In this document: positions 10,201-58,700 of the stretch, one piece after another
Position numbering within the stretch: position 1 is the first letter of the stretch
Layout: every line of letters starts with the position of its first letter
Assembly (NCBI GenBank): GCA_011033025.1
Contig: WFMF01000336.1
Location: forward strand, 125,540-189,539
Reading direction: 5' to 3'
DNA from: Beroe forskalii
Taxonomy: Eukaryota > Ctenophora > Nuda > Beroida > Beroidae
DNA: 64,000 nucleotides
The notes under the pieces: generated by a model
What the model was told of the DNA's origin: nothing
Databases searched by the model: none
The model's input: the letters and a program-made list of their open reading frames with translations, nothing else
Made by a program: the position numbers and the translations under genes

Positions 10201-12837
10201 CATAGGTCGACACGAATTTGTTCATCTTAACTTCATTGCTGCTGATCAGAAAGTCATTGATAGCTGGAACCCACCACCTGAGAGACAATGGGTGAGGAAT
10301 ACTGAAATAAGAATTGGCACAGAGCCAGTTTGACTTCGGGTCGCCCCAGTTCATGTATGACACCATCCCTATTAGCAGGAATAGCAAATATAATACTAGT
10401 TGCCATGGTTCCACCCCTTACTCCCTTAGCAACAGGGGCAGCAAATACCGGTTGCCATGTTCAGACCGGTTGCCATGTTCAGACCCCTTAGCAACAAGGG
10501 TTGATACTAACCGGTTGACAGGGTTCCATCCCTTAGCAACAGGGGAAGATACTAACCGGTTGACAGGGTTCCATCCCTTAGCAACAGGGGATGATACTAA
10601 GCGGTTGCCATGGTCCCATCCCTTAGCAACAGGGGAAGATACTAACCGGTTGCCATGGTTCCATCCCTTAGCAACAGGGGATGATACTAACCGGTTGCCA
10701 TGGTCCCATCCCTTAGCAACAGGAGAAGATACTAACCGGTTGACAGGGTTCCATCCCTTAGCAACAGGGGATGATACTAACCGTTACCATGGTCCCACCC
10801 CTTAGTAACAGGCGAAGATACTAACCGGTTGCCATGGTCCCAGCCCTTAGCAACAGGGGATGATACTTACCGGTTGCCGTGGTCCCACCCCTTAGCAACA
10901 GGGGATGATATGGAAGGCGTATCACGGGCAGTAGGGTATGAGGGAGGAGGGAGTAAGGAGTAGGGGGAATCTAGAACTCCCATCACATACAATCGACCAA
11001 TACCTGGCGTGGATATGTTTTATTAAATTTAAACAACAGTTCAAATTAGAATTACGAATATTTCAAACAAAACGGTGGAAAAATCATAAGATATTTCATC
11101 ATAAATATCGTGAGAAATCACCCACTAAATTAACAAGGTTGCCATACTGTATTCAATTCAATAACAAGGTTTCAAGTCATTTCAACTAACCAGACAGTAA
11201 GGTTTGATGAGCGTCTCTGTTGTACCGGACCATACCCACCTTTTCGTGGGTCACATCAAGCAAACCCAGCAGAGAAGAGTTACCCGACAGCTCTAGGGAT
11301 GGAAAGTTTAATAAAGAACAACCCACATGGCGACTTGAGCAGAAAGGGAGGCGGCAATTTTACTTCATTTCAATGATTACTGATTAGGGAAAAAATTTAA
11401 TCATTTTTACCACCAAGAAATTAAGTTTCTTTTAAACAAAACCGCAGTTCCACTGACCTACAACAACCGAGCCGTGCGGTATACTGCTAACATTCTGGTG
11501 GAAGAAGACAGGGTTTACAAGGTTATCTGCGAAGAAGTCCGGTCCGATGTCCTCGGGCTGTTCGTCCGGAGGGTAGGATGTGGAGATCCAGGAGGAGGGT
11601 CGGGGTGTGGTGGGGATGTACGACAAGGAGGCAACTACCTGAATGTATTTAATGGTAGATTGAGAGATCCGTATAGGCCAGTATCACGCCAGTATCAGGT
11701 CAATATCACGCCAGTATAATAGATGTTTTTGATAGGTGTTTATTGTATTGCTTTCATCTTGGTTCATGAGTGTGGTAATGTTGAATTGCCCAAATAAATG
11801 TGAAAATTTCTCATATTTGATATTTTCTAAACTCTTTCTATTTTATCATTTGTATATGACCAATTCCTGCTTAATTCCCACCTCCGATCTGATGGAAGAG
11901 AAGGCAGGAGTGTGGTAGGCGAGACCTCCTGATGCTACCTTGCGCAGCTTGTACCCTGGAATCAGTGGAGAAATATGAAAGGTACCTTAATAAAATATGT
12001 TGGAATCGATGACAAAATTTCATAATATGTCAATTGTCAAATATACCATTCTACGGTAATTGGGGGAGTGAGGCTGGATGAATCGTGGTAAATTCTGCTG
12101 ACCCACCTCTGTCAGTAATGTTTGACAGACACTTCTGACTCGCATCCCGTTTACTATCTGGCACAGCAATGGTTACATGAGATGAGGAGTTGTAGCACGC
12201 TATATGGATCCCACTATCTGCTTTGTCATGAGTATCTGGCGTACAGGACTCCGGTGAAGTCCCAGTTACTGCCACTTTCTCCACAGCGTCTTGTGAATCA
12301 GTGCCTTGGCACTGAGCCAGCATGTCAGACGAGCAGTTGACACCGAACATGGAGCCCGCAAACTCAGAGTGGTGCTGGTGCAGCAAAGTCCCTCGCACGT
12401 AGGCTGCCTTCATGACGTCACGAAGACTATGTATGCCTGGGAAGGGTTTGGATTGGTTTGAGTGTCATTTCAGGCCTGGGAATTATAAAATGAATTGAAA
12501 AGCGACTTCTAACCTCACCTCTATAAAGTTCAGTAATTTTATGGATAGATGCTTCGAGGCGATGTATGCGGGTAATTGGAATCGGTAATATCGGTATCAT
12601 CGTTAATTACCGAGTACTTGGAATCGGTAATATCGGTATCACGCTTACCGAGTACTGTAAATCGGTAATATCGGTATCACGCTTACCGAGTACGTAGCCA
12701 GAGAGCGTATCTCCCAGACTGTGTCCGATAGCCCCGTGGACAGACAGCCCGGCTCTCTGCAACACGTCAACAAGTCCTACAACGAATGCAGACAGTCCGA
12801 CGAACAGCGAGACAACATCCTCGTTAATACTGGAATC
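3868..12837 (-). CDS. Fatty acid synthase-like gene, second half (AT-DH-pseudoMT-pseudoKR)
   Basis: Minus-strand exons recognised, in transcript order: 12837-12687, 12436-12107, 11955-11882, 11638-11458, 11292-11191, about 9925-9792, 9428-9075, 8458-8272, 6295-5872, 5632-5480, 5313-5179, 4940-4861, 4707-4588 and 4251-3868 (TAA). Most junction phases match. The order of motifs follows animal type I FAS: AT (GHSLG), hot-dog DH, then the degenerate methyltransferase-like and KR-like regions. ER, KR catalytic half, ACP and thioesterase are not seen, and the frame stops at 3868. The first exon opens in phase 0, mid AT domain, so the gene is 5' incomplete here. Its natural 5' partner is the KS half at 52.8-60.7 kb or the AT exon copy at 46793-46951. 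At least one exon (10.1-10.3 kb) and the DH donor are uncertain. Cytosolic by family. Confidence 0.78.
4588..5632 (-). CDS. FAS pseudo-methyltransferase and pseudo-KR exons
   Basis: Four exons in phase. 5632-5480 carries VLVIGDGDVLF at the position of SAM-methyltransferase motif I ('VVEVLAGHG' in animal FAS, 'ILEIGAGTG' in PKS). 5313-5179 carries ADSVDCAIDVSCE, matching 'SADLLVCNCAVAA'. 4940-4861 carries GMASFLKNI, matching 'SGVVGLVNCLR' of the structural KR half. 4707-4588 continues this region. In animal FAS the methyltransferase fold is inactive. Here motif I again lacks the full GxGxG, so no methylation is predicted. Phases 2/2, 2/2, 2/1, 1/1 agree. Confidence 0.65.
5872..6295 (-). CDS. 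FAS DH C-terminal exon with Asn/Ser/Cys repeat insertion
   Basis: A 424-base exon (phase 1 in, 2 out). Its start (RLHDKILSIRRISP) aligns with the end of the FAS DH ('LPTRVTAIHIDP'). Its end (AELVDGVSADLAQHFF) aligns with the strand 'VAGGVHISGLH'. Between them about 45 residues are an in-frame tandem repeat of N-x-(S/N)-C-Q-G units encoded by a 21-base DNA repeat. The insertion replaces a normally short loop. The cysteine-rich run is unusual for a cytosolic enzyme. The exon joins in phase to 5632-5480. Confidence 0.68.
5968..6150 (-). repeat. 21-bp coding minisatellite inside FAS-like exon
   Basis: Eight to nine units of TTTCCTTGGCAACTGYTAGYG (plus strand) within exon 6295-5872. The unit length preserves frame and encodes repeated NxSCQG on the minus strand. 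The plus strand is also open across it but has no other support. Confidence 0.88.
6680..7070. repeat. 40-bp minisatellite running into the GPCR C-terminus
   Basis: About eight degenerate units of the pattern GGTACACGTGTCAGTTGTAC + GGACAGGGGTCACTCTGAGA. The two units nearest the gene also contain the copied last codons of the GPCR (AGCACTTCCTCTTGAG). The array therefore grew from, or into, the coding end of the gene. Confidence 0.85.
7015..7914 (-). CDS. Rhodopsin-like GPCR, intronless, nested in FAS intron
   Basis: A single open frame of 299 residues with seven hydrophobic segments. TM1 follows a short N-terminus (IALPSISILNF onward). TM3 ends in VVRLFC in place of the DRY motif. TM7 has LLNNTILLAQP in place of NPxxY, and is followed by a basic, Cys-containing tail suited to palmitoylation. 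It is a plasma-membrane receptor of the rhodopsin class with divergent activation motifs; ligand unknown. The gene is GC-rich against its AT-rich surroundings, lies on the same strand as FAS inside the intron between exons 8458-8272 and 6295-5872, and lacks introns, which suggests retro-duplication or a lineage-specific intronless family. The last codons and stop lie inside the minisatellite at 6680-7070. Confidence 0.8.
   Translation of the reverse strand: MNLEHSMSKLQELNRVLYIALPSISILNFPLSLLNFIVLLNLGIRKSPSSFIYFNLVIMDFLNSVTGLVISLHHDLRYWKDIGSNIYLFTFDANIVLVFGLAVVRLFCVKASALRILQNLRVVSYVVVGVSWLSGGFAVLYPRLIKANSYMKYAVLDLTECILIVSTVVMSVYTWFAVRGSAFSLRGSPVIRTAVKTSGLITLNFIATYTYYCFLNAARFYFSMVGDGTCPDNTWLTVFVCQDSLYVGVTFMCLQALLNNTILLAQPHSRLFLRRSALLCGAELKRKCCTSESDPCPYN
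8272..8458 (-). CDS. FAS DH second half, exon with the second catalytic region
   Basis: A 187-base exon, phase 0 in and phase 1 out, with clear acceptor and GTAAGT donor. The stretch ending WVDQASFDVIQDI aligns with the FAS segment 'NWVSFMDTMLQMSI', which carries the second DH catalytic Asp. Here the D-to-Q spacing is one residue shorter. The upstream part matches the family poorly. It joins in phase to exon 6295-5872. Confidence 0.68.
9075..9925 (-). CDS. FAS dehydratase-like domain, first hot-dog half
   Basis: Exon 9925 to about 9792 encodes the DH active-site region. The motif reads YSILGRRILP where family members have HxxxGxxxxP: Gly and Pro are kept, the catalytic His position is Tyr. 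It is followed by FLVWKSFARA, matching the FAS helix 'SIVWKTLARA', and LTNVILHK, matching 'EDVVLHQ'. Exon 9428-9075 (118 codons, phase 0/0) has LSTGIMPKSGTFHV and FLTGTI, matching the next strands. It then extends about 60 residues beyond the usual length with acidic, Cys-containing sequence. The donor of the first exon is unclear: the best homology runs past the only good GT. If the Tyr is real, the dehydratase is probably inactive. Confidence 0.7.
9428..9510 (-). repeat. Duplicated 3' splice site next to DH exon
   Basis: The acceptor segment GGTACTTCACTTCAG/ATTTC (minus strand) is present twice, about 42 bases apart, with the flanking GTCAAAACAG also copied. The proximal copy is used in the model because it opens the long DH exon in frame. 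Confidence 0.6.
10395..10915. repeat. 45-bp minisatellite in a FAS intron
   Basis: About 11-12 copies of a 45-base unit containing CCCTTAGCAACAGGGGA and ACTAACCGGTTGCCATGG. Because 45 is a multiple of three, the array leaves a long open frame on the plus strand (10314-10805). It lacks a supporting gene structure and is treated as a shadow. Confidence 0.88.
11191..12837 (-). CDS. FAS acyltransferase domain, exons after the first
   Basis: Five exons. 12837-12687 encodes the nucleophile elbow GAIGHSLG, with the Ser codon at 12718-12720. 12436-12107 continues with RDVMKAAYVRG and the CYNSSSHVTI region, and carries an insertion of about 40 residues relative to vertebrate FAS. 11955-11882 has KLRKVASGGLAYHT, matching the conserved AT 'GGxAFHS' stretch. 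11638-11458 has FADNLVNPVFF, matching 'YxVNNLVSPVLF'. 11292-11191 has VELSGNSSLLGLL, matching 'LEIAPHALLQAVL'. Phases run 0/1, 1/1, 1/0, 0/1, 1/1 and are mutually consistent. The domain loads acyl groups from CoA onto the ACP in FAS. Assignment as FAS/PKS AT is firm; which acyl-CoA it uses is not visible. Confidence 0.85.
12560..12700 (-). repeat. Tandem copies of a 5' splice site (AT exon donor)
   Basis: Read on the minus strand, the end of exon 12837-12687 plus its donor (GTACTCG/GTAAGC) is followed by two further copies of a unit of about 38-40 bases. Each copy again reads GTACTCG followed by GTAAG or GTAAT. The nearest donor gives the correct phase 1 join to 12436-12107. Confidence 0.75.
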
Positions 12838-12859
12838 CTGGGGAGTACAGGTCTCATCA

Positions 12860-12995
12860 GATGGTGGTATGTCATGTGGTATGTAGAATGGTATGGCATG
12901 TGGTATGACAAATGGTATGCCATAGCCCGTATGGTATGCCATGTGGCATACCATACGATATGCCATATCATATGCCATATTATATGGTATGCATA
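12860..12995. repeat. GGTATGCCAT/ATGGCATACC simple repeat
   Basis: About 130 bases of degenerate tandem GGTATG(C/T)CAT motifs, part of them in inverted order, so the block can fold. It lies just upstream of the acceptor of the AT exon. Apparent open frames here are repeat translation only. Confidence 0.75.
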
Positions 12996-15590: not shown

Positions 15591-15616
15591 GACGACGCCA
15601 ACCCCCTCAAACATCC

Positions 15617-16125
15617 TGGAAGTTGATGAATCCAAATTCGAGAATAGGAAGTATAATCGGGAACGACGTGTTAGTGTTAAGGGGAAGTGGGTTTAGTGTG
15701 TGCTTGGTGGTTGCTGTCGGAACAGTGGGGACTGCTTCCTTGTTGAGTTTCCAGGGAACGGGCGAGACAAACACACCCTCACCCGTCTCATCAAGAAGTA
15801 CGTTCTACTAGGAACCGTCATCCTGACATACAAATAGAAGGGTTACGGCTCCCTATTTCTCAGCAATCAGCATGGTTTCACCCATCTGGTGGTCAATCAC
15901 AGAAGAGGCTTCGTGGACCCACTCGCTGGTGTGCACACCAACACATGTGACGGCATGTGGTTTCATGCCAAGAAGCACATGCGGCTTGGAACTGGACGCA
16001 GCCGATTCGACTCCTCTAGCATTGCGATTGCTCTGTGTGAATTCATGTGGGTGAAGAAGCAAAACCTTACCAGAACTGGTCCTTCCATCATGGACAGAAC
16101 TTCAGCAAGGAGATCCCTGAACTGA
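15617..16125 (+). pseudogene. Merlin (ISXO2/IS1016-type) transposase remnant, copy 1
   Basis: The frame opens with EVDESKFENRKYNRERR, the first catalytic Asp region of ISXO2-like transposases. It continues through GTVILTYK, where the family has a second Asp before the Trp, and ends with FVDPLAGVHTNTCDGMW and EFMWVKK, the C-terminal catalytic block. In-frame stops follow WV and TYK, the second Asp is absent, and the usual 'TIEG' reads TCDG. The protein is dead. The element belongs to the Merlin superfamily of cut-and-paste transposons. Confidence 0.82.
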
Positions 16126-16363
16126 TGAGACGAATTTTTAATGATATATAATATCGTATTTTACCGTATATTTGAGTTAAACTTTGTTTTATTAGCTGAT
16201 GCGGCGTATTAGGGGCTAATTCATATAATTTAAATGTTAAAATTTCCAGCTTAGTGCAACAGTCACTTACCCATGATAAACGGATGGTAATTTCTTACTC
16301 ATCAGTTAAACGATGTGCCATATACTATATAATTATATGTGTTTGTCAATGGAAATATATTAT

Positions 16364-19462: not shown

Positions 19463-19562
19463 NNNNNNNNNNNNNNNNNNNNNNNNNNNNNNNNNNNNNN
19501 NNNNNNNNNNNNNNNNNNNNNNNNNNNNNNNNNNNNNNNNNNNNNNNNNNNNNNNNNNNNNN
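19463..19562. other. Assembly gap of exactly 100 N
   Basis: A run of 100 N, the usual placeholder for a gap of unknown length. A G-homopolymer tract (19431-19450) precedes it. The sequence resumes in the middle of element A. Confidence 0.99.
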
Positions 19563-21085
19563 GGCGCGAGTGATATTATAAAGGAGCAGTTGAATGAATG
19601 AAAATGATCGAAAAAGTGACATACAGTGAAGCATATACATATCAAATTTGGTCGCGCGCAGCACCACCACCTAGTCCAAATTTAGCAGAACGGATAAACC
19701 CCACACAACCCCAATTCATCACAGTCTCTGCTAAGGCGCCCGTAACGTTCGTCGATCGATCTTTAATGCCTTTTTGTAAATCAAAAAGGCGATTTTGAGA
19801 TAATCACGCCATTTCCAAAATATTATATTATTGCATGTGCTGCTGTAGCTGAGATGGACAAGGTTCCATTCTGCTATCTCACTCAGTTTAGAAGACATTA
19901 AATTAATCATCAAGCAGGAGGCTCTGTTGGGGACCATGCATATATTTATGAAGGAGTACTCTGCGGGAAACCCCTTCTCCGCCACGTTCATTAGCTTTAT
20001 TTCTATTTTCAGCTATCGGATGATTTCAATAATGCGACGATTTGAGCGAGTAAAATAAAGGAGTCTGGTGATTAAACATGATGCAGAGTGCCGACGATTC
20101 GGACGAGTAAAATCAAAAGAATGAGGTGATTTTATTAACAATGATGACGATTCGAACCAGTAAAATAATCGGAGGATTCTACTGCTATTAGCATATTCAG
20201 AATTCCGAGAAAATCCACAGACATTCGACATTCATACACGTCATATTATTGAAAAGTTTGATGAAATCGAAGAATGACGAAGTCTTTGAAAAAGAATCCG
20301 TTTACAAGTTTAAACATAAGGATGAACAGAGCATTGAACCCGAATACCTGTAAGCTAGCTGCAGGGCACACTCCACAGGATGCCGCTACACCAAGCTATA
20401 TTGGCGCGAGTGATATTATAAAGGAGCAGTTGAATGAATGAAAATGATCGAAAAAGTGACATACAGTGAAGCATATACATATCAAATTTGGTCGCGCGCA
20501 GCACCACCACCTAGTCCAAATTTAGCAGAACGGATAAACCCCACACAACCCCAATTCATCACAGTCTCTGCTAAGGCGCCCGTAACGTTCGTCGATCGAT
20601 CTTTAATGCCTTTTTGTAAATCAAAAAGGCGATTTTGAGATAATCACGCCATTTCCAAAATATTATATTATTGCATGTGCTGCTGTAGCTGAGATGGACA
20701 AGGTTCCATTCTGCTATCTCACTCAGTTTAGAAGACATTAAATTAATCATCAAGCAGGAGGCTCTGTTGGGGACCATGCATATATTTATGAAGGAGTACT
20801 CTGCGGGAAACCCCTTCTCCGCCACGTTCATTAGCTTTATTTCTATTTTCAGCTATCGGATGATTTCAATAATGCGACGATTTGAGCGAGTAAAATAAAG
20901 GAGTCTGGTGATTAAACATGATGCAGAGTGCCGACGATTCGGACGAGTAAAATCAAAAGAATGAGGCGATTTTATTAACAATGATGACGATTCGAACCAG
21001 TAAAAGAATCGGAGGATTCCACTGCTATTAGCATATTCAGAATTCCGAGAAAATCGATAGACATTCATCATTCATACAAGTCATT
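19563..21085. repeat. 840-bp near-identical tandem duplication after the gap
   Basis: 19563-20402 is repeated at 20403 onward with only a handful of differences up to about 21,000 (for example GAGGTGATTT versus GAGGCGATTT). Each unit is one copy of element A. Near-identity next to a gap may be a true recent duplication or an unmerged assembly overlap. Confidence 0.9.
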
Positions 21086-24933: not shown

Positions 24934-25115
24934 GGAGGTTGATGAATCCAAATTCGAGAAGAGGAAGTATAATCGGGAACGATGTGTTAGTGTTAAGGGG
25001 AAGTGGGTTTAGTGTGTGCTTGGTGGTTGCTGTCGGAACAGCGGGGACTCCTTCCTTGTTGAGTTTCCAGGGAACATGAGAGACAAACACACCCTCACCC
25101 GTCTCATCAAGAAGT
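24934..25115 (+). pseudogene. Merlin transposase remnant, copy 2, 5' part
   Basis: Paralogue of 15617-15800 (same DESKF block and same in-frame stop). It is cut at ATCAAGAAGT (25106-25115) by the insertion of a MITE that itself holds a LINE. It resumes at 28378. Confidence 0.8.
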
Positions 25116-25124
25116 AAGGTTTTC

Positions 25125-42000: not shown

Positions 42001-45000
42001 GTATGAGTACAGACTGATGCAACCAAATGGTGCTCCCCATCTACTAAACTAATTAACTAACTAAATGATGTGCTCTGCACTCTACTCTACTTAACTAACT
42101 TACTCAATTGATGTGTACTCTGCTATCTAACTAACTAATTGCCGTGTACTCTACTAACTAACTAACTAATTGCCGTGTACTCTACTTAACTAACTAAATT
42201 GCCGTGTACTCTACTAACTAACTAACTAAATTGATGTGTACTCTACTAACTAACTAACTAAATTGATGTGTACTCTACTAACTAACTAACTAAATTGATG
42301 TGTACTCTACTAACTAACTAACTAAATTGATGTGTACTCTACTAACTAACTAACTAAATTGCCGTGTACTCTACTAACTAACTAACTAAATTGATGCAGA
42401 TGTGTACTCTACTAACTAACTGACGTGTATTCCACTATCTAACTAAACTTTCCCAGGAAAGTGCTCGGACCTGCCTGAGGAGACCCCCCATCTCGTAGCA
42501 GGAGGTAGCACCGTGTTTCCCGTGCCCCACGGTACCCCCGTTCTAGTGGAGTGTGAGACTGGGTATACTCTGCAGGGGAGGCTGTCATTACTTGTGACGA
42601 GGAGAGATACTACGGGGATACCATACCCTCGTGCGAGCAAGGTAAGATACATGATACCCTCGTGTGAAGAAGGTAGGATACATGATACCCTCGTGTGAGG
42701 TTAAATAATAGATACATGATACCCTCGTGTGAAGAAGGTAGGATACATGATACCCTCGTGTGAAGAAGGTAGGATACATGATACCCTCTTGCCAACGCGA
42801 CTTTGCTGTTTTGTTTTCACGAGTTTCCTGGCAAGTTTTGGCAAAGTTATGCTTTTCGCTCGAACTGAGTAAATTAAAATTTGAGAATATGAGTGGAACC
42901 CTTCGCTTTATCAGAAAATCTGAGAAAAATAATTATATATCATCCCATTGGTCTTCCTCTGGATCCATCGGACTGATCTCCACAGTAGAATTACCAGAAA
43001 TGTCCCACAGATAAGTGCGAGGGATTGCCCGTGGTTCCCGAGCAGGGTGACGAACCAGTCACCCCGGACACACTGGGACCACTCTCCACCAGCACTGAGT
43101 TCCCAGTACCATTCGGCACCACAGTAACAGTCTCCTGTGAAGACGCGGGGTTCACTGTGCACGGAGATGCGGTCATTACCTGTCTCAAGGACACGGGGTA
43201 CTCAGTGGAGAACGATCTGCCTACTTGCAAACCCGGTGAGTGGATGTTGTGTCATTTGCAAAGTTGATTGAAAACTCTCATATCAGACCTATAAAAGATT
43301 AAAAGGTACAGGTAGGTAGTTGTGCTTCCCAAGATGTGCTGTTCCATACGATAAGACGCCTCAAATTTAACTTTCGTCTGAGGAGTAACAGTCCCGCTTT
43401 GGCCGATTTGAAAGCATATTAAATAAATTAAATGATAGATTGCCTATAGCCACACATGCACCTTTATCACTAACACTATACAGTATTTTTTCCAAAAACC
43501 AAAAAGGATTTGGTTGTGGTGGTCCGCGGCGGTTTTAAGGCGTTCTTCACGGTAAAACCCATGTTATGGAATAGAACGCGACGGTTAAAACTGCTGCAAC
43601 GTCACTTCAAAATGTACAGCTTTCACGAAACTATTATGCTTCGAAAAAGTGCCGTTGCGGCAGTTTTAACCGTCGCGTTCTATTCCATATCATGGGTTTT
43701 ACCGTGAAGAACGCCTTAAAACCGCCGCGGACCACCACAACCAAATCCTTTTTGGTTTTTGGAAAAATATCATCCTTTTTCTTTGCTCAGATATTGAAAT
43801 TTGGCGTCAAATCGCGCGTACAAAATTAGCGTTACCTAGCATTACTGATGACGTCACAATTACGTCATAAAATTAGATGAGCTATCTGAGACCCATTCAT
43901 TAGCACACTTGGGACTATGACCGACAACATATCCAAAGATGAAGTTCTGGGATGGTCCCGTTCTCTCTAACTCATCCTTACCGTTTTAGCTATTTTTTGC
44001 GATCTTTTCGTGTCAAAGTGTTTCAAACAATTGCAAATATCTCAATGATGCCGGAGGCCCGGAACTTTTCGACCCCATTTTTGGAAAGTAAATTAAATTT
44101 CCTTTCTGCATTATCATAAGCATTTTTACCTATCTCAAAAGCTTCATGCCGAAAAATTGCGCTGAAAAACGCCAATTTTCGGGAAATCAAAATATGAAAT
44201 TCACGACTTTGTGACGTCATCAAAATGACGTAAGATGCTTTTCAAGGGCAATTTTCGCAAGTTCTATCTTTCTACTTTCCAACGCTGGGTCGATGAACTC
44301 TGTATCTTTTACGGTTCTCGAGATATGGCTTTTTAACGAGGGTACACTTTTCGCCTAAAAATGTTCTCTATTGGTATGTTATTGTCTTAACCCTTTTTAA
44401 CAAGAACAGCCTCAATTTTGGCGATTTCAAGTTGTAATAACTCAGCCATTTTTGAATGAATTGATCTCAAATTTGAAACTCCGAGCGCGCGCACAGCGAA
44501 GGCGCGAAAACTCAATTTTCAGTCGATTTGATCGTCGGGAAGGTTCCGTAAAAAATTTTGAAATTTGGCGAATCCACAAAAACATATATATGGGGGCTGG
44601 CAAGCGCAGCGATGCGTACGCATCGCGTGTACGATTTCAGTGCGAATAAGTTGTCATAATTTGGGCATCTTTTATCCAATCGATCTGAAATTTTGACAGT
44701 TGCACCTTTGACCCTCAAACATGCGACGTATCGATTTTGTTGGAAATCCAATAACGGGAAATTGCCCAAATTTCTTCGTGAAATGTGGGGAAATACATGA
44801 GATTTCTCTCGTTAGAAACGCCGTCCAATGCTCGCCCTCGGACCCTTCGGGTCCTCGGGCTCGCAGCTCGGGCCTTCGGCCCTCGCACTGTTAGGTTCGC
44901 CGTCCAATGCTCGCCCTCGGGCCCTTCGGGCCCTCGGGCTCGCAAACCGCCGCGGGGGGCTTGCCAGCCCCCTGATAAATTCTCTGAAGTTTGCACCTCT

Positions 45001-48000
45001 CATTCTACTTCAGTGTGAACTAACAACCCTCTCCTCCCAGTTCTTCTCTACTCTACACTAATAACCCTCTCTTTCCCAGTCCTGTGCAGCTCTCTCCCAC
45101 CTGTTGGCGCAGGAGTACTCCTCACTGAGACCACCCTCCCTGTCATAGTCCAGACTGAGGTTACTGTCTCCTGTCAGCCTGGACATGATATCACCGGGAG
45201 TACTGTACTGACTTGCAGGACAGATGGGGTGTTCGCAGGAGCTGATGGGACTACGGAGTGCGTTGCTCGTGAGTATCAAGGGAGAGGGATGCGTTATGCG
45301 GGGTGCGACAGCTCCACATTACTCAAACAAACTGGCAAAACACTTCATTGTCTTCAGAGATTAGGACGGCAGGGACTGCCAAGGAACAACAGATGGCTGT
45401 TCTAGATATTGCTTGATACCATCATTTTCACTCATTTCGACTTGACGCCATAGTGAAGTTTTTCTTTTAGCAACAAGTCCTTTAGAACCGATTTAGAATT
45501 TAAGTACGTTCCATTTTTCCGAATATTTTCTGCTCCCCTAACTTCTTTCGTCTATGTAACTTCTCTTCACTTCTCTCATCTTCTCTCCCACAGTTGAGTG
45601 CACGGCACTGCCTCTGGTGGACTACCTCACCCTTACTACGGGTGATTCCTCCTCCTACTTCCCTGTCACCTACGGGACCGAGGTGCCTGTCACCTGTTCA
45701 GGTGACAAACCCAACCTCCTGGGAGACAGAGTCATCACCTGTCTCTACGACGACCACTTCCAGTACAACATTAGACCGAGTTGCTTCGGTGATAACGGTG
45801 GGTTATTTTTGTTCTATCATGTTGATATTTCGTAGATAATTATGATAGTTTAGCGTTGATGGGTTACTACCAATCATGGTGGTAATTAATCGAATAATTA
45901 CCAAATCAATAGCTAAAGAACAATAATATTATCAAGGCGAATTTAAGTATCTGGCAAAACAAAATCTTAGGGGCGCATACCTACTAAACTAACCCTTCCT
46001 CTCTCTCACACCTAACCCTCCCAACTCCCTCCCCCCTCCTCGACTCCTCTCCTTCCCTTTCCTGACTCCTCCGAGGGTCACACTGCTGGAGTCCCACATG
46101 TTGTCAGCACTGTTATATGTTACATGTTGTCTGTGTTGTCTGTTCCTTCCTAAATCTTAACGACCAGATATCGGAAGATAGGTACCAAAGATCACACAGG
46201 TGAAGAGGAGAAAAGATGTGACGAAGAGAGTACGAGACTCACGGGCAGAGAAATACCTTTTTTCGAAAACAGGAGTTCCCTACTTCTTTAAGAGTAGTAG
46301 GGAATTAGTTGTAGCAAAAGTATACACGCTTAGGTTCAGAAAAGTAACGAAAGAATTACGTAAGATTTACGATTATGTAGAATGAGATACTGCTGTCTTT
46401 ATCTTCAGGGATATCGTGGCTGACGTGACGTGAAGGAACGAAAGGAACGAGCTATCGATAACAGAATTGTAATCCACAGAGGAATTTCCGAACGTAAGTA
46501 CTGTGCGGTTTTCTTTCATAATTTTCCTTTACAATTTATTCCTTTGAATAGAATAAGAGATCGTGTGTATCTAATTTAAGTAAATGGGAAAAATAAGACT
46601 AGACGATGCATCACATATAATTCCTGCATCCGTTCAAACAAACATCAGATCACGCAAACAGTTAAGGACATTAAAAACACACCGAACACAAAAACACACA
46701 CACTGCCACACACTGTCAAGAACAAGCTACAAAACACACCACTCCACAATCCACATACCTCATCACAGAGAATGTGTTTCAGATCCACATACCTCATCAC
46801 AGAGAATGTGTTTCAGATCCAACCCCTCAGCTCCCTCTTCCTCCAGCACACTTTGGCACTTTGCCAAACTCTCACGGAACACCGCAAAGTCCATGAGACC
46901 ACGAGCCATGCCCGGCCACTGGGACCCGAACCCGCCCACCAGGATCCAGACCTGAGGACAGGAAGATTGTGAGGAAACCCGAATACCCGGGGGAGGGGAA
47001 ATTAGAGGAGAGAATATAGCGGTGAGTTGATGTTTCAATTCGTAAATACCGTAGTTATAAGAGAAAAATGAAACCATCTGTGCAAAAATTATTTACAAAG
47101 GTTTTATTGTTGGAATGTGTTCTAATGGGTCCCATGAAGGCCTCCAAAGAGTGTTAAGGTGCTACCTTGAAGGGAAAAGTCAGGAGGGCCACGCCCTTTT
47201 TCGACCGTGGGAAATTATGAGAGAAAAATGAAAATTCAGTTTTAATATGATATATGGCATGTGGGTACCCTAAACCTATGTTTTTTGGGACGGGGAATCG
47301 ATTCCAAACACTTTCAAAGTCGTATCTATCTTCCTTGACTCAAAACCGACCACGCCCATTTTTGCGCAAGACATTTTTGACGTCTAAAAGCTATTTTTCA
47401 GATTAATGTGATATATGGCATATAAGTACTCTAAACCCATGTTTTTTGGGACGAGAAATCGATTCCGCACATTATCAAAGTCGTATCTACCTTCTTTGCC
47501 CGAAACCCGGCCACGCCCACTTTTTGCGTATGGGATTTTTTGACCGCCACTAAGGTATTTTTCAGTGAAGTTCGATGTATGGCATGTAGGTACACTAAAC
47601 CCATGTTTTTGGGACGAGAAATCGATTCCACGCATTATAAAGTCGTATTCACTCTTCCTTGACTCAAAACCGGCCACGCCCATTTTTGTGCAAGTCATTT
47701 TTTGAGGTAGAAAAGCTATTTTTCAGATTAATGTGATATATGGCATGTAGGTACTCTAAACCCATGTTTTTGGGACGAGAAACTGATTCCGCACATTATC
47801 AAAGTCGTGTCGACCTTCCTTGACCCTATACCAGCCACGCCCACTTTTTGCGTATTTATTGGCAGATAATCCTCTTATCTGTGGTCATTGGGGTCTATTG
47901 CCCAATGGTCGATTTTGATATACAACAGCTATGTCTCTAAGCTATCTGTCCTCTGCAGCACAGGCTTTTGGATTTGCACTTGCTTTCGCCTAATGTGGTC

Positions 48001-49246
48001 GTCACCCCTCAGTCGCTTGTGAAGGGTCTTGCCACGGCATCCAGCACATACCAAGGTGCACACATACATAATGCATACATGTGGGGATAGACAGGACATG
48101 GTGTGCAAGGGTGGAGGGTTCTTCTCCAGGGATAAAGCCAAAGGTTGAGCAGTTTGCCTAGGAGTATTGGTTGCGCAGCAGAACCAGCAACACTCTATAC
48201 ATAGCTACGGAGAGTGTACGCTGGTAAACGGGGCAAGTACACCTGGTAATGTACACGTAAAAAGTGTACGCTTTTTAGTGTGGTAGCATCTTGTAATGTT
48301 CAGAGTCTTCTTGAATTCGATTGCTTAATTCTCTTCGCGATCCGCTATGTTTGTCAATTTCTCGTGGGACAAAGTGGCAATTTCTGCGCGGTCAACCGGA
48401 CTAAACCTCGAAAAGGGTCTTCCGTTGCCCGCGTGACATGGTCTCATTTTAGGGTTGTCGGCGCAAACGCGTTTTTGTCAGGATTTGTAGCTTTGTTGAG
48501 TATGCAATTAATTGGTCACGTCCACAGAGCCCGTGAGCTGGATTTAAAACATCTTTTTAAATCAGAAACCGGTTCAAAGTTTTCATTGCAGCTCAAATCA
48601 GTTTTAAAGAAGTAGTGATTTCATTTCAATTTAACTTCTGATGTTTCAGGTTGCTACACAACCTATCTTACCCCGACCTCTCTGTTTCAGATTGCTACAC
48701 AACCTATCTTACCCCGACCTCTGTCAGAACAACATCTCCACCCCAGACACAACCAACTGGAGCTCTGTCTTTCTCCTAACCAACATACACGGCAGTGACA
48801 CCATCGTCCGCAAACAATCCATATTCCACTTCCTTATCAACGGAACTTACTACGGGGAAACCGATGCTAGGTGGGATAAAGTGGCGTGTGAACTGGGCAA
48901 GTGTAAGGTGGAAAAGTGTGTGGAGATCTGGGCTCCACCCGAGTACTTCCCTGATTACACGCTCGATCACACGAGACAGTGTGAGCAAATCGCAACTGAA
49001 ACACCCGAGGTTTACAATTTAACTGACTGTTCAGCCGATGGTGAGGTTAAGTTTGACTTTAAGAGGCGTAATGAGTACGCCGAGTCTCTTCCCCCAGAGA
49101 AGCAGAGACTGATGCAGTACAGGGTCGTGGAGATAGGGTGGGGACTGCTGTTATTCAACATGATGGTAACTGCAATTTGCATAGCTTGTGGTAAATATTA
49201 TAAAAGGATTGAATCTAAGAGATTCACGGTTCCTATAAGAGAATAA
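29904..49246 (+). CDS. Giant mosaic receptor: WSC-like, PLAT, 5 kringles, FAMeT-like, about 5 discoidin-type, 4 sushi, TM
   Basis: Some 35 exons on the plus strand chain with AG/GT sites and mostly phase-1 borders, the hallmark of shuffled extracellular modules. Order: signal peptide (29904-30027), WSC-like, PLAT, five two-exon kringles, a Cys-rich exon, a two-exon FAMeT-like jelly roll, discoidin/fucolectin-type modules, four one-exon sushi domains, and a final exon with a transmembrane helix (48693-49246). It should be a type I cell-surface protein. Kringle plus WSC recalls Kremen and PLAT recalls polycystins, but I know no protein with this full order. Five exons contain single-base shifts in homopolymers. 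The link from sushi 4 to the last exon is not proven because a 2.9-kb stretch with an antisense FAS exon lies between. It could be two genes. Confidence 0.65.
30502..30792 (+). CDS. WSC/PAN-like Cys-rich domain exon
   Basis: One exon, phase 1 at both ends. [14 protein letters not shown] at the start and [10 protein letters not shown] in the middle follow the pattern G-C-Y-x-D...R-A, C, FaxQ, ECw of WSC-type domains. A Gly-rich end ([14 protein letters not shown]) follows. Such domains bind carbohydrate in some proteins; here binding is inferred only. Confidence 0.65.
31035..31549 (+). CDS. PLAT/LH2-like domain, two exons, one-base shift
   Basis: Exons 31035-31268 and 31459-31549. [11 protein letters not shown] and [11 protein letters not shown] match the first strands of PLAT domains, and [18 protein letters not shown] matches the 'lD-iG-l-v-v-hd' core. 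Between them the frame changes at the T run 31150-31153; one T fewer restores a continuous domain. The two exons join in phase 0 and leave in phase 1. PLAT domains mediate membrane or protein contacts. Confidence 0.7.
31886..32423 (+). CDS. Kringle 1 (two exons)
   Basis: 31886-32030 holds the first half ([34 protein letters not shown]). 32281-32423 holds the second half ([22 protein letters not shown]). All six cysteines are present. The intron within the domain is phase 2, as in all five kringles here. The final donor GCG/GTAAGT is amplified in the array that follows. Confidence 0.9.
32404..32935 (+). repeat. 53-bp minisatellite carrying exon end plus 5' splice site
   Basis: About ten copies of a 53-base unit (GTGGAATACCAGAATGCG/GTAAGTTCTCATCACGC...). 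Each reproduces the last codons of kringle 1 (GIPECG) and its GTAAGT donor. One copy is truncated near 32,590. All downstream donors are potential decoy or alternative sites. Confidence 0.92.
32954..33624 (+). CDS. Kringle 2 (two exons)
   Basis: 32954-33110 ([32 protein letters not shown]) and 33488-33624 ([31 protein letters not shown]). Six cysteines; phase 1, 2, 1. Confidence 0.9.
33875..34288 (+). CDS. Kringle 3 (two exons)
   Basis: 33875-34031 ([34 protein letters not shown]) and 34167-34288 ([26 protein letters not shown]). An alternative in-frame acceptor exists at 33890. Six cysteines. Confidence 0.88.
34492..35200 (+). CDS. Kringle 4 (two exons)
   Basis: 34492-34642 ([34 protein letters not shown]) and 35076-35200 ([28 protein letters not shown]). 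The usual 'T-x-S/T-G' is KTMKAG, slightly divergent. Confidence 0.88.
35387..35867 (+). CDS. Kringle 5 (two exons)
   Basis: 35387-35525 ([34 protein letters not shown]) and 35740-35867 ([26 protein letters not shown]). The conserved R-W before the YC motif is missing (VTDYC), so this is the most divergent kringle. Confidence 0.86.
36163..36360 (+). CDS. Cys-rich exon (FNNGRSCC motif)
   Basis: A phase 1-1 exon of 66 codons with about ten cysteines in the pattern CPAELPF-x-FNNGRSCC ... SKCC ... C..GLC. It resembles small disulfide domains found beside CCP or C-type lectin modules in invertebrates, but is not assigned to a named family. Confidence 0.6.
36506..37116 (+). CDS. FAMeT-like jelly-roll domain (two exons)
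   Basis: 36506-36711 ([20 protein letters not shown]) and 36924-37116 ([20 protein letters not shown], then [13 protein letters not shown]). The second exon has the W-x-v-x-k-...-L-x-I-x-C-N-...-v pattern common in farnesoic-acid-O-methyltransferase-like domains of invertebrate surface proteins. The alternative acceptor at 36519 gives a wrong frame. Such domains are structural, not enzymatic, in most proteins. Confidence 0.5.
37246..38045 (+). CDS. Discoidin/fucolectin-type module 1 (three exons)
   Basis: Exons 37246-37367 ([18 protein letters not shown], the 'nviDg-pxTfw' signature), 37525-37714 ([19 protein letters not shown], then CGSITG) and 37908-38045 ([20 protein letters not shown]). 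All module-bounding phases are 1. Fold and spacing match galactose-binding-like FTP/F5-8C modules. Carbohydrate binding is inferred. Confidence 0.75.
38164..40009 (+). CDS. Discoidin-type module 2, split around an inserted module exon
   Basis: 38164-38303 (first part), 38580-38730 ([20 protein letters not shown]) and 39860-40009 ([25 protein letters not shown]) form one three-part module. Between parts two and three sits a complete single-exon module (39016-39436). The acceptor of 38580-38730 is preceded by a 22-base near-copy of itself (TACCTCCAAGTAATAAACACAA). Confidence 0.65.
39016..39436 (+). CDS. Extra discoidin-type module in one exon
   Basis: Contains [30 protein letters not shown] and IGEIEVLG, so the whole module is in one exon, unlike its neighbours. 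It starts in phase 1 ([12 protein letters not shown]) but the frame shifts at the GG 39057-39058; removing one G gives an open exon with phase 1 at both ends. As a 1-1 exon it can sit in an intron of the split module 2 without breaking the frame. Confidence 0.65.
40199..40999 (+). CDS. Discoidin-type module 3 (three exons)
   Basis: 40199-40381 ([19 protein letters not shown]), 40576-40696 ([20 protein letters not shown]) and 40865-40999 ([27 protein letters not shown]). The first exon begins in phase 1 and shifts at the C run 40263-40266; one C fewer restores it. The donor of the second exon (ACATTACGG/GTAGGT) is repeated about three times to 40,765. Confidence 0.7.
41227..41860 (+). CDS. Discoidin-type module 4 (two exons)
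   Basis: 41227-41548 fuses what are two exons elsewhere ([15 protein letters not shown], then [12 protein letters not shown] and RVCGIIAG). 41732-41860 has [10 protein letters not shown]. The frame breaks at the T run 41428-41430; one T fewer makes the exon open. Confidence 0.7.
42035..42445 (+). repeat. 32-bp CTAACTAACTAA minisatellite
   Basis: About 11-12 units of AACTAAATTGATGTGTACTC plus TACTAACTAACT, ending 12 bases before the acceptor of sushi 1. Its CTAAC-rich units resemble branch-point sequence. Confidence 0.9.
42457..42641 (+). CDS. Sushi/CCP domain 1
   Basis: One phase 1-1 exon: [21 protein letters not shown], then [19 protein letters not shown] one-base shift lies in the G run 42575-42578 (CAGGGGAGG); one more G restores the C-terminal half. 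The donor CAAG/GTAAGA is amplified downstream. Confidence 0.78.
42621..42790 (+). repeat. 31-bp repeat of sushi-1 exon end plus donor
   Basis: Five copies of ATACCCTCGTGTGAAGAAG/GTAGGATACATG, near-copies of the last codons of sushi 1 and its splice donor (ATACCCTCGTGCGAGCAAG/GTAAGATACATG). The end of this array is also the left edge of the inverted duplication. Confidence 0.88.
43011..43235 (+). CDS. Sushi/CCP domain 2
   Basis: Phase 1-1 exon, frame intact: [46 protein letters not shown]. Copy in arm A' at 62869-63093 (minus). Confidence 0.85.
43485..43768. mobile_element. 280-bp fold-back MITE
   Basis: Near-perfect palindrome with arms of about 120 bases (TTTTTTCCAAAAACCAAAAA...GGTCCGCGGCGG...) around a loop of about 40 bases. 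It is absent from arm A', so it inserted after the duplication or was lost there. TA flanks both ends, compatible with a Tc1/mariner-type MITE; superfamily uncertain. Confidence 0.85.
43770..45010. other. Insertion in arm A, no gene
   Basis: About 1.2 kb not present in arm A'. It has TGACGTCA motifs like those at 21.3-21.7 kb, an AT-rich body, and at 44810-44975 two GC-rich hairpin repeats (CTCGCCCTCGGRCCCTTCGG and complement). Short open frames lack support. Confidence 0.55.
45080..45268 (+). CDS. Sushi/CCP domain 3
   Basis: Phase 1-1 exon: [38 protein letters not shown]. The usual Trp before the last Cys is missing. Copy at 62167-62355 (minus). Confidence 0.82.
45594..45797 (+). CDS. Sushi/CCP domain 4
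   Basis: Phase 1-1 exon: [53 protein letters not shown]. Copy at 61631-61834 (minus). Confidence 0.84.
46793..46951 (-). CDS. Antisense copy of first FAS AT exon (arm A)
   Basis: Same 159-base phase 0-0 exon as 60567-60725, with [15 protein letters not shown] (GxQWxGM start of AT domains) to HILCDE. Acceptor CCTCAG and donor GAG/GTATGT are intact. On this strand the next AT exon is 12837-12687, which begins in phase 0 at the right residue. The exon end with donor is duplicated (second copy ending at 46759), a 34-base tandem not seen in arm A'. Confidence 0.8.
47215..47870. repeat. Four tandem copies of a roughly 170-bp unit
   Basis: Units share GTGATATATGGCATGTAGGTAC, AAACCCATGTTTTTTGGGAC, CGATTCC and GGCCACGCCCA. 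They lie in the spacer just inside arm A. Minus-strand open frames are repeat translation. Confidence 0.85.
48693..49246 (+). CDS. Terminal exon: ectodomain stalk, TM helix, short tail
   Basis: Open to TAA at 49246. It has N-glycosylation sequons (NIS, NWS, NGT, NLT), seven or so cysteines, a membrane helix ([19 protein letters not shown]) and a basic 18-residue tail. Most likely the C-terminus of the mosaic receptor. The acceptor region is duplicated in tandem (48650-48691 and 48692 onward; TTGCTACACAACCTATC), and the phase from sushi 4 does not fit the open frame directly, so an exon may be missing. Part of the 48280-48615 open frame upstream has no recognised content. Confidence 0.6.
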
Positions 49247-52755: not shown

Positions 52756-55700
52756 CGAAGTGATACCACTGTGAGGTAAGTGTTGCGTGGTGCGTTATGT
52801 TTTATGTAATGCCCGGGACCCACAATCATTCAGCCTCGTGTTTTATTGGCAGTTGTTATAATACAGTTGTAGCTATATATTCGAGTTGAAGCTCTTATTC
52901 GGGAGATTTCTTAATTATTCATGAAAAATAAGCTTCATTCTCCGGGATTGATGTGGTTATCATGAACTGAATCGATCGATTGTTCTTTTTTCTGATGTTC
53001 CCATGCCCCATATATTATAAACGAACTAAACTCAAATAATGAGTGTAATGTGCAGGAGTGATGTCAGGAGTTACTAAAGGGTATCGGATGAGATTGTTAT
53101 CTCCGGAATGTCGGGCAGATTCCCAGAATCAGACTGTCTGGAGGAGCTCTGGGACAATCTCATGTCTAAGGAGGACATGATTCGCGTGGATGGTGAGTTA
53201 CGACATGATTTTGCCGATTTGGGTAGATTTTCAGGGAACGTATCACTTATAACCGCCCTTTTGCCACCTTATCCATGTCTTAATGATAAAAAACATTTCC
53301 CTTACTAAGACATATTGCTATGCAGAGACATTGACCCTAGTCGCCGCGCTATCTTTTTGAAATTCAGTGCAAAAACCCAATTTAAAACCACCTATGTGTC
53401 ACTCAAAAAACTCTCTCGTTTCAGACCGACGTTGGCCGGTCGGTGTCTTTGACGTTGACACCTTCGGTAAACTGAAGGACATCAGTCGCTTCGACGCCCC
53501 TTTCTTCAACTTCACGGCTGACGAAGCGAACCAGTGTGCCCCTGATGTCAGGATTATGCTGGAAGTGGCTTGGGAGACGATAGTGGACTCCGGGTACGAT
53601 CCTGCAGAGCTAGCCAACTCACCCATCGGGGTTTACATAGGTACGTTAATGGAGGTTTACATAGGCTCGTTAATCGGGGTTTACATAGGTTCGTTAATCG
53701 GGGTTTACATAGGTTCGTTAATCGGGGTTTACATAGGTTCGTTAATCGGGGTTTACATAGGTTCGTTAATCGGGGTTTACATAGGTTCGTTAATCGGGGT
53801 TTACATAGGTTCGTTAATCGGGGTTGAGTTTTACATAGGTTTCATAATCGGGGTTTACATAGGTTCTTTGTAAAATATGACAACATTCGGCGACCAATCA
53901 GTCGAGTAAGTGAGTAACATTGTGATCAATTGTGAGTAACATGTTGAATAACACTGTGAGTAACATTGTGAGTAACATTGGTATGTCACTGTCAGGTAAC
54001 TGTATAGTCGAAGCTGGCGAAGCTCTCACCAACAACATCAACGCTATCACAGCTACTGGCTTCCTCAACAGCATGCATACCTCCCTACCCAACAAGGTAA
54101 TAAATCTAGTTGCGAGTCATTATCAAGGTTGCTGGTAGAAAACCTTTAATATTTACTCTAACTATCTGGGTTTGGAATGAATAATTATGTGGCCAGATAG
54201 CGGAGTGCACGCTAATGGGTAAGAAAAAGTCTACGGGACCTCTTGGTCAGAATTCACAGTATCCTGGAACATGCTTGCGATGAAATATGTTTTGTACTGC
54301 ATCATGTATTTTGTTTATATTGGACTCTGCTTTTTTGAATCTTTGTCTCCGTCAGGTATCTGACTACTTCAAGTTCAGTGGTCCGAGTGAGACGCATGAC
54401 ACGGGATGCTCAGCCTCTCTCTACGCTCTAGGTGGGTTGGGTCAGGGTTGGTTTCAAGGGCACAAATCCGCGTCAACTTATAATTATTGGACATTCATAG
54501 ACCAGGTGTAAAAACTACCAAGCTAAGTGGGAAACGGACCTGTGCCTAGATGAAATATGTCATCTCAAGGCTATTAATTTGTCTAAAGTTAAACCCAAAT
54601 TCCGTATCGCTCATTTTCTCTTACTTTATCAGTCATGTTTCTTTACAAGTCAGCAAGCAAAGATAAACATTGTTTCAGATACGGCAGTCATGGCCATGAA
54701 ACGTGGTGACATTTCAGCAGCCCTGATTGGCGGCTGCAACCTCAACCTAAAACCACAGGTATCCTGATAGCACTGCTAAAATGGGTAAAATCTTGCACCT
54801 TGATCCATTCATTACCAATATCAGGTGATTACCAATACCAGATGCTTTAATTTTCAGAACCCCCTAGGAACTCTTAGATCTACTGACTACTCTATTTCAT
54901 CTCTCTATTCATCTTCTCACTGGTTTACTGCATCACTGACACAGGATTCGCTCGACACTTTGTATGATTGACTGAACAAACCCTCAGGCTACCATAGCAC
55001 TACACCGCATGAACATGGTCTCCAAGAACAGGGGGTGTCGGGTCTATGACAAGGCAGCTGATGGGTACAGTCGAGCAGAGTGCATTTCCTTGGTTTTCCT
55101 TCAGGTATATTCCTTGCCTGATTGCAATTGACCCTAGGTTGTTTAAGATGCGGCCCGATTTCCGATGTTCCTTGCTTTGTTGTTGTTGCCGTTTTTGTTG
55201 TTCAAAATCAAATCGCGAGAATTAATCGCAAACAAAAAACGAAAAATTTGACCTCGGAAAATTATACTTATTTTCCCTTTTTCGCTAAGAGGATGTTAAT
55301 CATAACGTTACGAACCTTATTCAAGTGGCGGAGTCAAGCTCGTCGGATTTACGGCAGGATCGTTAACACAGTGACTAACAATGACGGGTTTAAAGAGGAG
55401 GGTATCATCTTCCCAGATTCTCTCAGTCAGGTTCGTATCTGAGTAGGATAAGGGATCATTGGCCAACGATTTATTCATTAGTCATAGTGAGTCAGTGAGA
55501 TGCGATTTTTTCGCGCAAATTTGCTTTGATAACAATGCGTTTCTTATAGACACTTCAAAATACACATTATTTTATTTGCGCGCAAAAGAACGCAAAGCAA
55601 GCGCGGCGTATCATGCCTTGCTCCAAAAGGTCTCTAAAAAACCCCTAAACCCTCCCTTTCTCCGGTTGCAGATCTCGCTACTGGAGGACGCGTACAGTGG

Positions 55701-58700
55701 CACGTGTGTGTCCGCGCGCGACGTAGCGTACGTTGAGGCGCACGGGACGGGAACCCAGGCAGGGGACACTCAGGAGTGCTACGCAGTCGACACTTTCTTC
55801 TGCAGCAAGCGGGGGAGGTGAGTTGACACTTGAAAGGGCAGGAAGCGGGGGGAGGTGAGTTGACACTTTCTTCTGCAGCAAGCGGGGGGAGGTGAGTCGA
55901 CACTTTCTTCTGCAGCAAGCGGGGCGAGGTGAGTTGAAACTTGACAGGGGGCGATGTTATCCAGTCGGACATGATTATCACGGACATGATTTTCACGTTT
56001 TTAGAGTTTTAGATTGAAGCGGGGGAGGTCCGTAAAAAATTGAGTTTAGAACTTTTCTTTCTGCAGCCCATATATCTCCAAAAAGAGGATGCCTTATGTG
56101 ACTTCACGGTCATGATTTCATATTCCCAGGACAACCCCCTTCTCATCAGCTCTATCAAGTCTAACCTGGGTCATGATTTCATACTATATTCCCAGGACAA
56201 CCCCCTTCTCATCAGCTCTATCAAGTCTAACCTGGGTCATGATTTCATATTCCCAGGACAACCCCCTGCTCATCGGCTCTATCAAGTCTAACCTGGGTCA
56301 TGATTTCATATTCCCAGGACAACCCCCTTCTCATCAGCTCTATCAAGTCTAACCTGGGTCATGATTTCATACTATATTCCCAGGACAACCCCCTGCTCAT
56401 CAGCTCTATCAAGTCTAACCTGGGTCATGATTTCATACTATATTCCCAGGACAACCCCCTGCTCATCGGCTCTATCAGGCTTTTTGGGTCAGATTTCATA
56501 TTTGACAATAGTTTGGTAACCTGGGTGAAATTCCCAGGACATTTGCTCATCGGTAAATAAACCTGGGTCCGATATGTATATTTTCCCAGGACAACTCATC
56601 GGTCAAGTCTAACCATGGGTCATGTTCAGCTGACAATTGCTCATCGGTCAATTGGGTCATGATTTCATACTATATTCCCAGGACAACCCCCTTCTCATCG
56701 GCTCTATCAAGTCTAACCTGGGTCACGCTGAGCCTGCCAGTGGGGTAGCGAGTCTGTGTAAAGTCCTGCTGTCCTACACCAAGGGGGTGATACCCCCAAA
56801 CATTGATCCGGTGGAGATAAACCCCAAGCTAACGGCAATAGTGGAGGGAAGACTCAAGGTCGTGGTGAGTTATATTAGTGAGAATTACCTGCCCCACTCG
56901 CCACGGCCCCCACTCCCCACGGCCCCCGCCCAATTGTCATTTGATATGCATCGCATCGATATTTTCTGTATACTATTTATTATGTATCCTCACTGTAGTC
57001 AGTGAAAACATGTTATTTTATGACATATTTATTATGAAATCGAAAAGTTTCCCATTTCATGTACGGTAGGAAATTTTAATATTATTTTCAAATTTTGACG
57101 TTAAAAGTTTTCATTCGCTTTTATGAAAAGAAAAATTTTGAATTGGCAACTTTGTTTAAAGTTTGAAAAATTGAATTGAACATTCCCCTATTTTCTTTGA
57201 AGCATGCTGCCCTTTAATCAAACACAAGGAAATATATTTTCATGAAATAAAAGTCCTATTTTGAACGCTTTATCCTCATACTAACCTGGCGCCGTGGGTA
57301 AGGACGATCTTGTAGGTCCTCCACCGGGTGGAGTCTCCCCATTGCACTCCGGGCAGATGAATCCCGCTGCATCTGCAAATTGCAGGTGCTGGACGTATAA
57401 TTTGTGATAGTGGGTGCCGTGGCAACATGGCACCTATCCCTGGCTGAGAAAACGAAAGTTTTGGATATCGATGGAGATGCAATGGACCCCTAAAAGACTA
57501 CAGTCCTGAGAAATAATTCCCGTCAACACTTATGGTCAAACAAATCACACCCTTTCCTGAAAAACTATTTAAGAAATATTTCCTTGTGTTTTTGATCATA
57601 GATCGGAAAAATTAGGATCAGATTTTCAGAACAATTAGAATTTTTCCCTCTACAACACACGTTACCCACTCTCCCTCTATTCTGATCCCCTCTCACCCAC
57701 TTTCAGACAAAGCCACGCCCATCACGGGTAACGCCCTGGTGTCCCTCAACGCTTTCGGGTTCGGAGGCTCCAACGCCCACGTGATCCTGCTCCCTAACGA
57801 GGCGGAGGAGCGGAGTGAGCGAGTGGGGGTGTTCTACTTGAGTGGGAGGACGGAGGTGGCAGTGCAGAGTATGGGGGAGCTGGTGGAGGCCGAGCCGACC
57901 CAAGGTGAAGTCTTTGCTTTGTGTTGTTAGGAATAGAGTAACTACCCAAGGTGAATCCTTTGTTTGTGTGGAATGAGAGGAACAACCCATTTCACTGAAG
58001 ATGGGACCTGTCAGTGATCTAGTACATAAGAGTATGAGTAGAGGATCCTTTCCTTGCAGATGGGAATGGATTCTTTATCTTATAGAGATTAATCACGGTT
58101 ACAAGTATCGTACCCAAGAAGCCCAGAGTTTTGGGAAAACAATGAATACAATTGGTTATATAAGGCGTAGATATGTTCTGCCGTTTTGAAATAAAATACC
58201 GGGTGTACCACGAAATAGTGGACAAAAGTAAACGTTCATAACTCAGCTTCTGGTGGGAGTTTCTACATGAAATTTCGGGAAGTCAAAGATATAGGCTGAA
58301 AGTTTCTGCACTACAAATTTGAAGTGTCTAGCTCAAAAAATGTCCGAGTTATCAACGAAAAACCAGTTTTTCGGCCATATCTCCGCTCCTGGGACTCAAA
58401 AATGTTAGCTACTCCTTGGACATATTGGTCAGATGTTGCCCGTAATATCCTGAAAGTTTCATTAGGATTGCTCAAAAAACCTAGGAGATATGCGAATTTT
58501 TGTATCGCTAAAAAGTGTCTATACGCAAGCTTTTACACACTCTGCAGATAAAATGTAAACAAACACGGTGCTTATCTCTATATTTGGACATGTTAAACTA
58601 TGCAAGCTTACATAATGTACCCTTTAATTGTGCTTTATGTACACTTTTTTGCGACACAAAAATTCGCATATCTCCTAGGTTTCCCGAGCAATCCCGATGA

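Follow-up and report, generated by a model that had tools for sequence, protein, structure and literature searches.

Minisatellites that duplicate exon-intron boundaries are known from amphioxus as mirages. Sections of one report describe them in the Adh3 gene and in the globin genes BflGb6 and BflGb9 (PMC3087553), and part of a second report describes a mirage in lancelet PGBD5 and cites troponin C (PMC3902484). According to the same sections of the first report, either boundary can be duplicated, copy number differed between haplotypes (6 versus 3), regular splicing appeared undisturbed by reverse transcription polymerase chain reaction, and mirages were proposed as a source of new introns. 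Turnover in which the unit at the edge of a cluster is excluded from homogenization is also described there (PMC3087553). Here we report tandem repeat arrays across splice junctions in a 64-kb window of Beroe forskalii (contig WFMF01000336.1; the window is the whole stretch of 64,000 nucleotides that was analyzed, and positions refer to it). Fourteen arrays touch an exon-intron junction. We consider these to be mirage-type minisatellites, i.e. short tandem duplications whose segment happens to straddle an exon-intron boundary, with a probability of about 0.72.

As far as the published sections describe the amphioxus mirages (PMC3087553), the arrays have in common with them minisatellite-size tandem repeats across a donor or acceptor, an exon-side unit through which the gene stays readable, AG/GT signals in the extra copies, and a variable copy number, here between paralogous arms of a duplication. 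Unit lengths are 12-66 bp here versus 10-72 bp in Adh3 and 150-160 bp in the globin genes. What differs is that 14 cases occur in several genes of a single 64-kb window. On the evidence of those sections the phenomenon has already been described in amphioxus, and the arrays found here are real, dense and of a known type. No genome-wide count of mirage-like repeats turned up in the literature searched.

The window contains animal-like DNA and its genes have introns. Exons were predicted with a small gene finder of our own, after which splice junctions were curated by eye, yielding 128 junctions (64 donors and 64 acceptors). Low exon penalties in the first run of the gene finder gave 313 exons, far too many, and that run was dropped; the second (66 exons) and third (94 exons) served as guides for the hand-made list. 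The curated models comprise 65 exons and 58 delimited introns with median lengths of 151 bp and 248.5 bp, respectively. Because the junction list was drawn up by a curator who already knew the arrays, the junction-overlap test was not blind. Five of the nine predicted proteins submitted to Pfam gave a match at E values up to 0.01, and no family was found at that threshold for the other four (proteins 2, 7, 8 and 9). The domains are ketoacyl synthase (N- and C-terminal parts and its C-terminal extension), acyltransferase, kringle (five stretches), F5/8 type C and sushi. Four of the 63 exons displayed (31035-31268, 40199-40381, 41227-41548 and 53056-53192) lack an open frame, so the sequence carries small errors, such as sequencing indels, or genes in decay.

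Tandem Repeats Finder (TRF) at default settings produced 77 rows, which were merged into 44 arrays covering 12.5% of the window. Eleven of these include a curated junction: donors 12686, 32423, 40696, 42641, 46792, 53640 and 55817, and acceptors 38579, 48690, 53995 and 62355. With acceptors 56681 and 9428 and donor 57904, which lie beyond the reach of default TRF, the total becomes 14, and both 5' and 3' exon boundaries are hit (8 donors, 6 acceptors). Acceptors 38579 and 53995 are weak cases that reach only 4 bp and 5 bp into the exon. Donor 41548, found by permissive TRF next to an exon without an open frame, and acceptor 53055, from the lowest-threshold TRF run, were left uncounted. An earlier note on this DNA had claimed junction-bearing tandem repeats in at least ten places. 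All 11 places that it listed (7 donors, 4 acceptors) match curated junctions, and nine of these junctions fall inside a default TRF array, 56681 and 9428 being the other two. Its repeat at 46759 is real with an extent corrected to 46749-46821, and the repeats at junctions 12686, 46792, 9428 and 62355 are likewise real but belong to minus-strand genes. Acceptors 38579, 53995 and 45079 and a degenerate repeat at donor 57904 are additions to its list.

The arrays lie on the intron side of their junctions. In all ten arrays measured, the overlap with the exon was 7 to 43 bp and shorter than one unit, the rest being intronic. If arrays were symmetric about the junction, the probability of such an outcome would be near 1e-7 (simple product of 1/copies). 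The copy on the exon side would therefore be the gene's copy and the other copies intron. Arrays cover 15.3% of intron bases and 3.5% of curated exon bases, and with default TRF only one array lies wholly within any of the 65 curated exons, at 5989-6169, with an in-frame 21-bp unit. This array sits in a predicted minus-strand exon, where it encodes a seven-residue repeat in frame. Permissive TRF added two weak exonic arrays with periods of 20 and 27. At 6739-7065, a receptor-like minus-strand frame of a single exon has its 3' end and its stop codon overlapped by tandem repeats of 40 and 59 bp; this array spans the end of a coding region and not a splice site. The fatty acid synthase-like protein predicted by splicing via the outermost copies aligns with the solved fatty acid synthase 2vz8 over query residues 1-591, and the alignment leaves no room for repeats.

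Whether arrays meet junctions more often than by chance depends on the null model, specifically on whether whole arrays or single units are placed. When whole arrays were placed at random within multi-exon genes (null a), there was no excess, with 11 observed versus 9.5 expected (P = 0.31), or 12 versus 9.8 (P = 0.21) with the extended 56108 array and with 9428 left uncounted. Since it allows arrays to lie over exons, we do not consider this null suitable. If every array was instead reduced to one unit and placed at random (null b, 20,000 draws), 2.2 hits were expected versus 11 of 24 arrays observed, and 2.7 versus 13 of 26 after inclusion of 9428 and the extended 56108 array; in neither case was the observed number reached by any of the 20,000 draws. 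In null c, single units were confined to introns or placed across intron ends, with introns collapsed and 56108 taken by its extended end; arrays 46749 and 48642 fell outside this test because their introns are not delimited. We hold null c to be the fairest since most duplications within exons are barred by selection. It gave 3.1 expected versus 10 of 22 observed (P about 0.0003), 1.8 versus 8 of 22 if at least 6 bp was required on each side of the junction, and 2.7 versus 10 of 18 without 14 uncertain junctions. Permissive TRF arrays hit junctions in 13 of 44 cases versus 3.2 expected, and at score 80 in 12 of 20 versus 2.5, introns not being collapsed here. The excess was concentrated in strong arrays: at a score of at least 100, 7 of 9 arrays were on junctions versus 1.9 expected, and below 100 there was little excess (3 of 13 versus 1.2, P = 0.10).

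The donor arrays were found by TRF unless indicated otherwise. Two lie on the minus strand at acyltransferase exons. At 12572-12693 a 38-bp unit is repeated 3.1 times over donor 12686 of the fatty-acid-synthase-like exon 12687-12837 (Pfam Acyl_transf_1), and at 46749-46821 two exact copies of a 34-bp unit plus 5 bp cover donor 46792 of exon 46793-46951. On the plus strand, the array at 32402-32918 consists of 9.4 copies of a 53-bp unit at donor 32423 of a kringle exon (32281-32423, Pfam Kringle), and nine donor-like copies were scored in it. A 26-bp unit repeated 2.7 times at 40683-40774 includes donor 40696 of exon 40576-40696 (TRF and site scoring), and a 31-bp unit repeated 5.3 times at 42623-42788 includes donor 42641 of exon 42457-42641 (TRF, site scoring and copy alignment). 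Two ketoacyl synthase exons are affected: exon 53425-53640 has 9.8 copies of a 24-bp unit at 53625-53866 over donor 53640 (TRF and copy alignment), the open frame of the exon continuing through the array, and exon 55672-55817 has 3.9 copies of a 37-bp unit at 55785-55944 over donor 55817 (TRF and site scoring). The degenerate 41-bp repeat at 57898-57989, seen by permissive TRF and by eye, covers donor 57904 of exon 57707-57904.

Acceptors are covered on the minus strand by two copies of period 44 at 9421-9508 (acceptor 9428 of exon 9075-9428; permissive TRF only, with site scoring) and by a 36-bp unit at 62335-62596, which has seven acceptor copies at acceptor 62355 of the sushi exon 62167-62355 (TRF and site scoring). 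On the plus strand, TRF found two copies of a 22-bp unit at 38540-38583 (acceptor 38579, including 4 bp of exon 38580-38730), two of a 41-bp unit at 48642-48722 (acceptor 48690 of exon 48691-49246, which encodes a small predicted protein; also site scoring), and a 12-bp/36-bp array at 53910-54000 (acceptor 53995, including 5 bp of exon 53996-54096). The plus-strand array at 56108-56724, defined by TRF, by eye and by site scoring, has a unit of about 61/66 bp and includes acceptor 56681 and 43 bp of exon 56682-56864. Of its copies, 7 were aligned and others are degenerate; TRF reports only 56108-56502, and by eye and site scoring the acceptor before exon 56682 sits in the last copy, past that end. 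Permissive TRF and arm comparison further revealed a two-copy paralogue of the 62335 array at 44996-45083 (+), with acceptor 45079 and 4 bp of exon 45080-45268. The fatty acid synthase intron 55818-56681 thus has a separate strong array at each end, and intron 53641-53995 has one strong and one weak array.

An inverted duplication within the window made it possible to compare paralogous arrays. Positions 42743-43475 pair with 63365-62653 (82%) and 45025-47034 with 62408-60484 (88%). The 34-bp donor segment that is doubled at 46749 occurs once in the paralogous arm, near 60725. It sits there between two TCCA motifs, one in the exon and one in the intron, as slippage or microhomology-mediated joining would predict. 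The acceptor array of the sushi exon has seven copies in one arm (62335) versus two in the other (44996-45083); the differences in copy number seen here are between paralogues. Copies within an array also differ from one another in alignments. In array 42623 the extra copies that were aligned, three in all, have deviations from the exon copy in common, and in array 53625 the GTACGT of the exon copy is replaced by GTTCGT in six of seven extra copies. This pattern resembles the excluded-edge turnover outlined in the sections of PMC3087553. By ungapped comparison a distinct edge copy was found at 42623 and 53625 and was not shown at 32402, 46749 and 55785. The exon-derived and intron-derived parts of extra copies showed no consistent difference in conservation in an ungapped comparison of 11 arrays, in which shifted copies inflate the differences.

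The two parts of the inverted duplication (42743-47034 and 60484-63365) flank a 13.5-kb segment. Inside this segment, ketoacyl synthase exons on the plus strand continue to an acyltransferase exon on whichever arm is read, while the acyltransferase exons that come next are at 12.1-12.8 kb in minus orientation. The fatty acid synthase-like gene may have been split in this way by an inversion between the arms.

Directly seen were the repeats with their units, the place where the junction falls in the exon-adjacent unit, the restriction to the intron side and one unduplicated paralogue. From these we infer a formation route in three steps. A tandem duplication would first arise by replication slippage or by end joining at short direct repeats. 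Duplications internal to exons would mostly be purged by selection, whereas one that straddles a junction would keep a complete outermost copy, and therefore, as we propose, its extra copies could be spliced out as intron. The extra copies might then grow, shrink and homogenize as a minisatellite while coding constraint holds the exon-side copy. This is the simplest account and it requires no new machinery. Several points weigh against it. The copy used in splicing is deduced from homology. In the sequence as given, the frame is not carried from donor 55817 into exon 56682. Among 13 arrays, the exon-side site had the strictly highest score in 5 and was the only one in 1; it shared the top score in 3 and ranked below an extra copy in 4. 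Splice-site strength was accordingly rejected as a mark of the used copy. Microhomology was observed for one event only, and the link to the amphioxus mirages rests on likeness, their anatomy being a close match. Finally, duplication and purging alone leave unexplained an approximately three-fold excess over the selection-aware null. Our first guess is that junction arrays persist or expand better, or that their detection is biased.

A mutational hotspot would address this residual excess and would suit the introns with arrays at both ends (55818-56681, both strong; 53641-53995, strong and weak). On this reading, junction DNA undergoes duplication at a higher rate than the inside of introns, with breaks tied to transcription or splicing as one conceivable cause. 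We regard it as unlikely, because the sole datable event has TCCA breakpoints in exon and intron with no splice motifs, and because the small excess among weak arrays suits persistence equally well. The earlier note suggested a mechanism that duplicates splice-site DNA; copying specific to such DNA is not shown, the one duplication with an unduplicated paralogue having a 4-bp TCCA repeat, and no splice motifs, at its ends. Its other suggestion, selection tolerating only arrays that preserve a working site, is supported, as all ten arrays measured overlap the exon by less than one unit and extend into the intron. The view that chance rarely hits junctions held under the unit-level nulls and failed under the whole-array shuffle. 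With minisatellites and short introns both dense, arrays could meet junctions without any bias, as the whole-footprint result (11 versus 9.5, P = 0.31) and the 12.5% coverage would allow. Chance alone nevertheless seems quite improbable to us: the whole-array null lays arrays across exons, and the unit-level nulls expect 2.2 to 3.1 where 10 to 11 were seen, a disparity that persists without the uncertain junctions (10 of 18 versus 2.7). A special mechanism cannot be proven from one window chosen by eye with self-made gene models.

It is very unlikely that the extra sites are retained as useful, giving robust splicing or alternative products. Strong sites are kept in many extra copies, such as the nine donor-like ones at 32402, and array 53625 is open in frame, but most unit lengths (38, 53, 26, 31, 34, 41 and 37) are not multiples of three, and at 53625 and 42641 the extra copies have weaker sites than the exon copy. 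Expansion of the arrays by the assembler or by sequencing error is also very unlikely: four of the 63 displayed exons lack an open frame, about 100 N occur at 19463-19562, and according to a section of PMC3087553 a genome draft had one mirage assembled wrongly, but copies differ within arrays, and degenerate and two-copy cases occur, one with a single-copy paralogue.

Other features of the window were noted. The run of about 100 N adjoins a near-identical tandem duplication (19563-20244 and 20403-21084, 98.8%) and may mark an assembly join. At 25109-27924, reverse-transcriptase-like open frames end in an A-run and are bounded by a 16-bp direct repeat (25109-25124 and 27909-27924); the element resembles a 5'-truncated long interspersed nuclear element inserted into a repeat that recurs at 15787-16173. 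ARAGORN found no transfer RNA genes in the window. The sole Rfam match was a U1 small nuclear RNA-like gene at 57278-57436 (+; RF00003, 82 bits), which is intronic to the fatty acid synthase-like gene. At the 5' end it has AUACUAACCUG in place of the AUACUUACCUG of the family consensus, a change within the donor-pairing stretch, and it may be a variant U1 or a pseudogene.

Related duplications are known elsewhere. Part of a review (PMC4974935) covers intron gain by tandem duplication, with ATP2A1 (Hellsten 2011) and potato RdRp as examples. There, as here, the duplication crosses a splice boundary and brings ready-made splice signals, whereas the present arrays occupy existing introns. No new intron bounded by duplicate copies was seen in the window, and the fatty acid synthase product aligns without one. 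In human segmental duplications, internal tandem repeats alter the exon-intron structure of genes, as sections of PMC2812944 report. Minisatellite variation between paralogues at exon-intron boundaries is common to both; the human repeats often lie within coding sequence and are transcript-supported, and those found here lie on the intron side and are known from DNA alone.

The residual excess is the point that still calls for explanation, and the answer to "more than chance" hangs on the null chosen. That exon-intron junctions are hotspots of tandem duplication in this genome, about one junction in ten having a duplicated splice site, is doubtful. If true, there would be a standing supply from which introns could be gained, splice sites could shift and alternative exons could arise. 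Arguments for intron gain by tandem duplication usually rest on a few old cases, and a genome rich in fresh, variable splice-site duplications would show the raw material as it forms. Such a genome would also show how splicing picks among identical sites and how often a spare site turns real.

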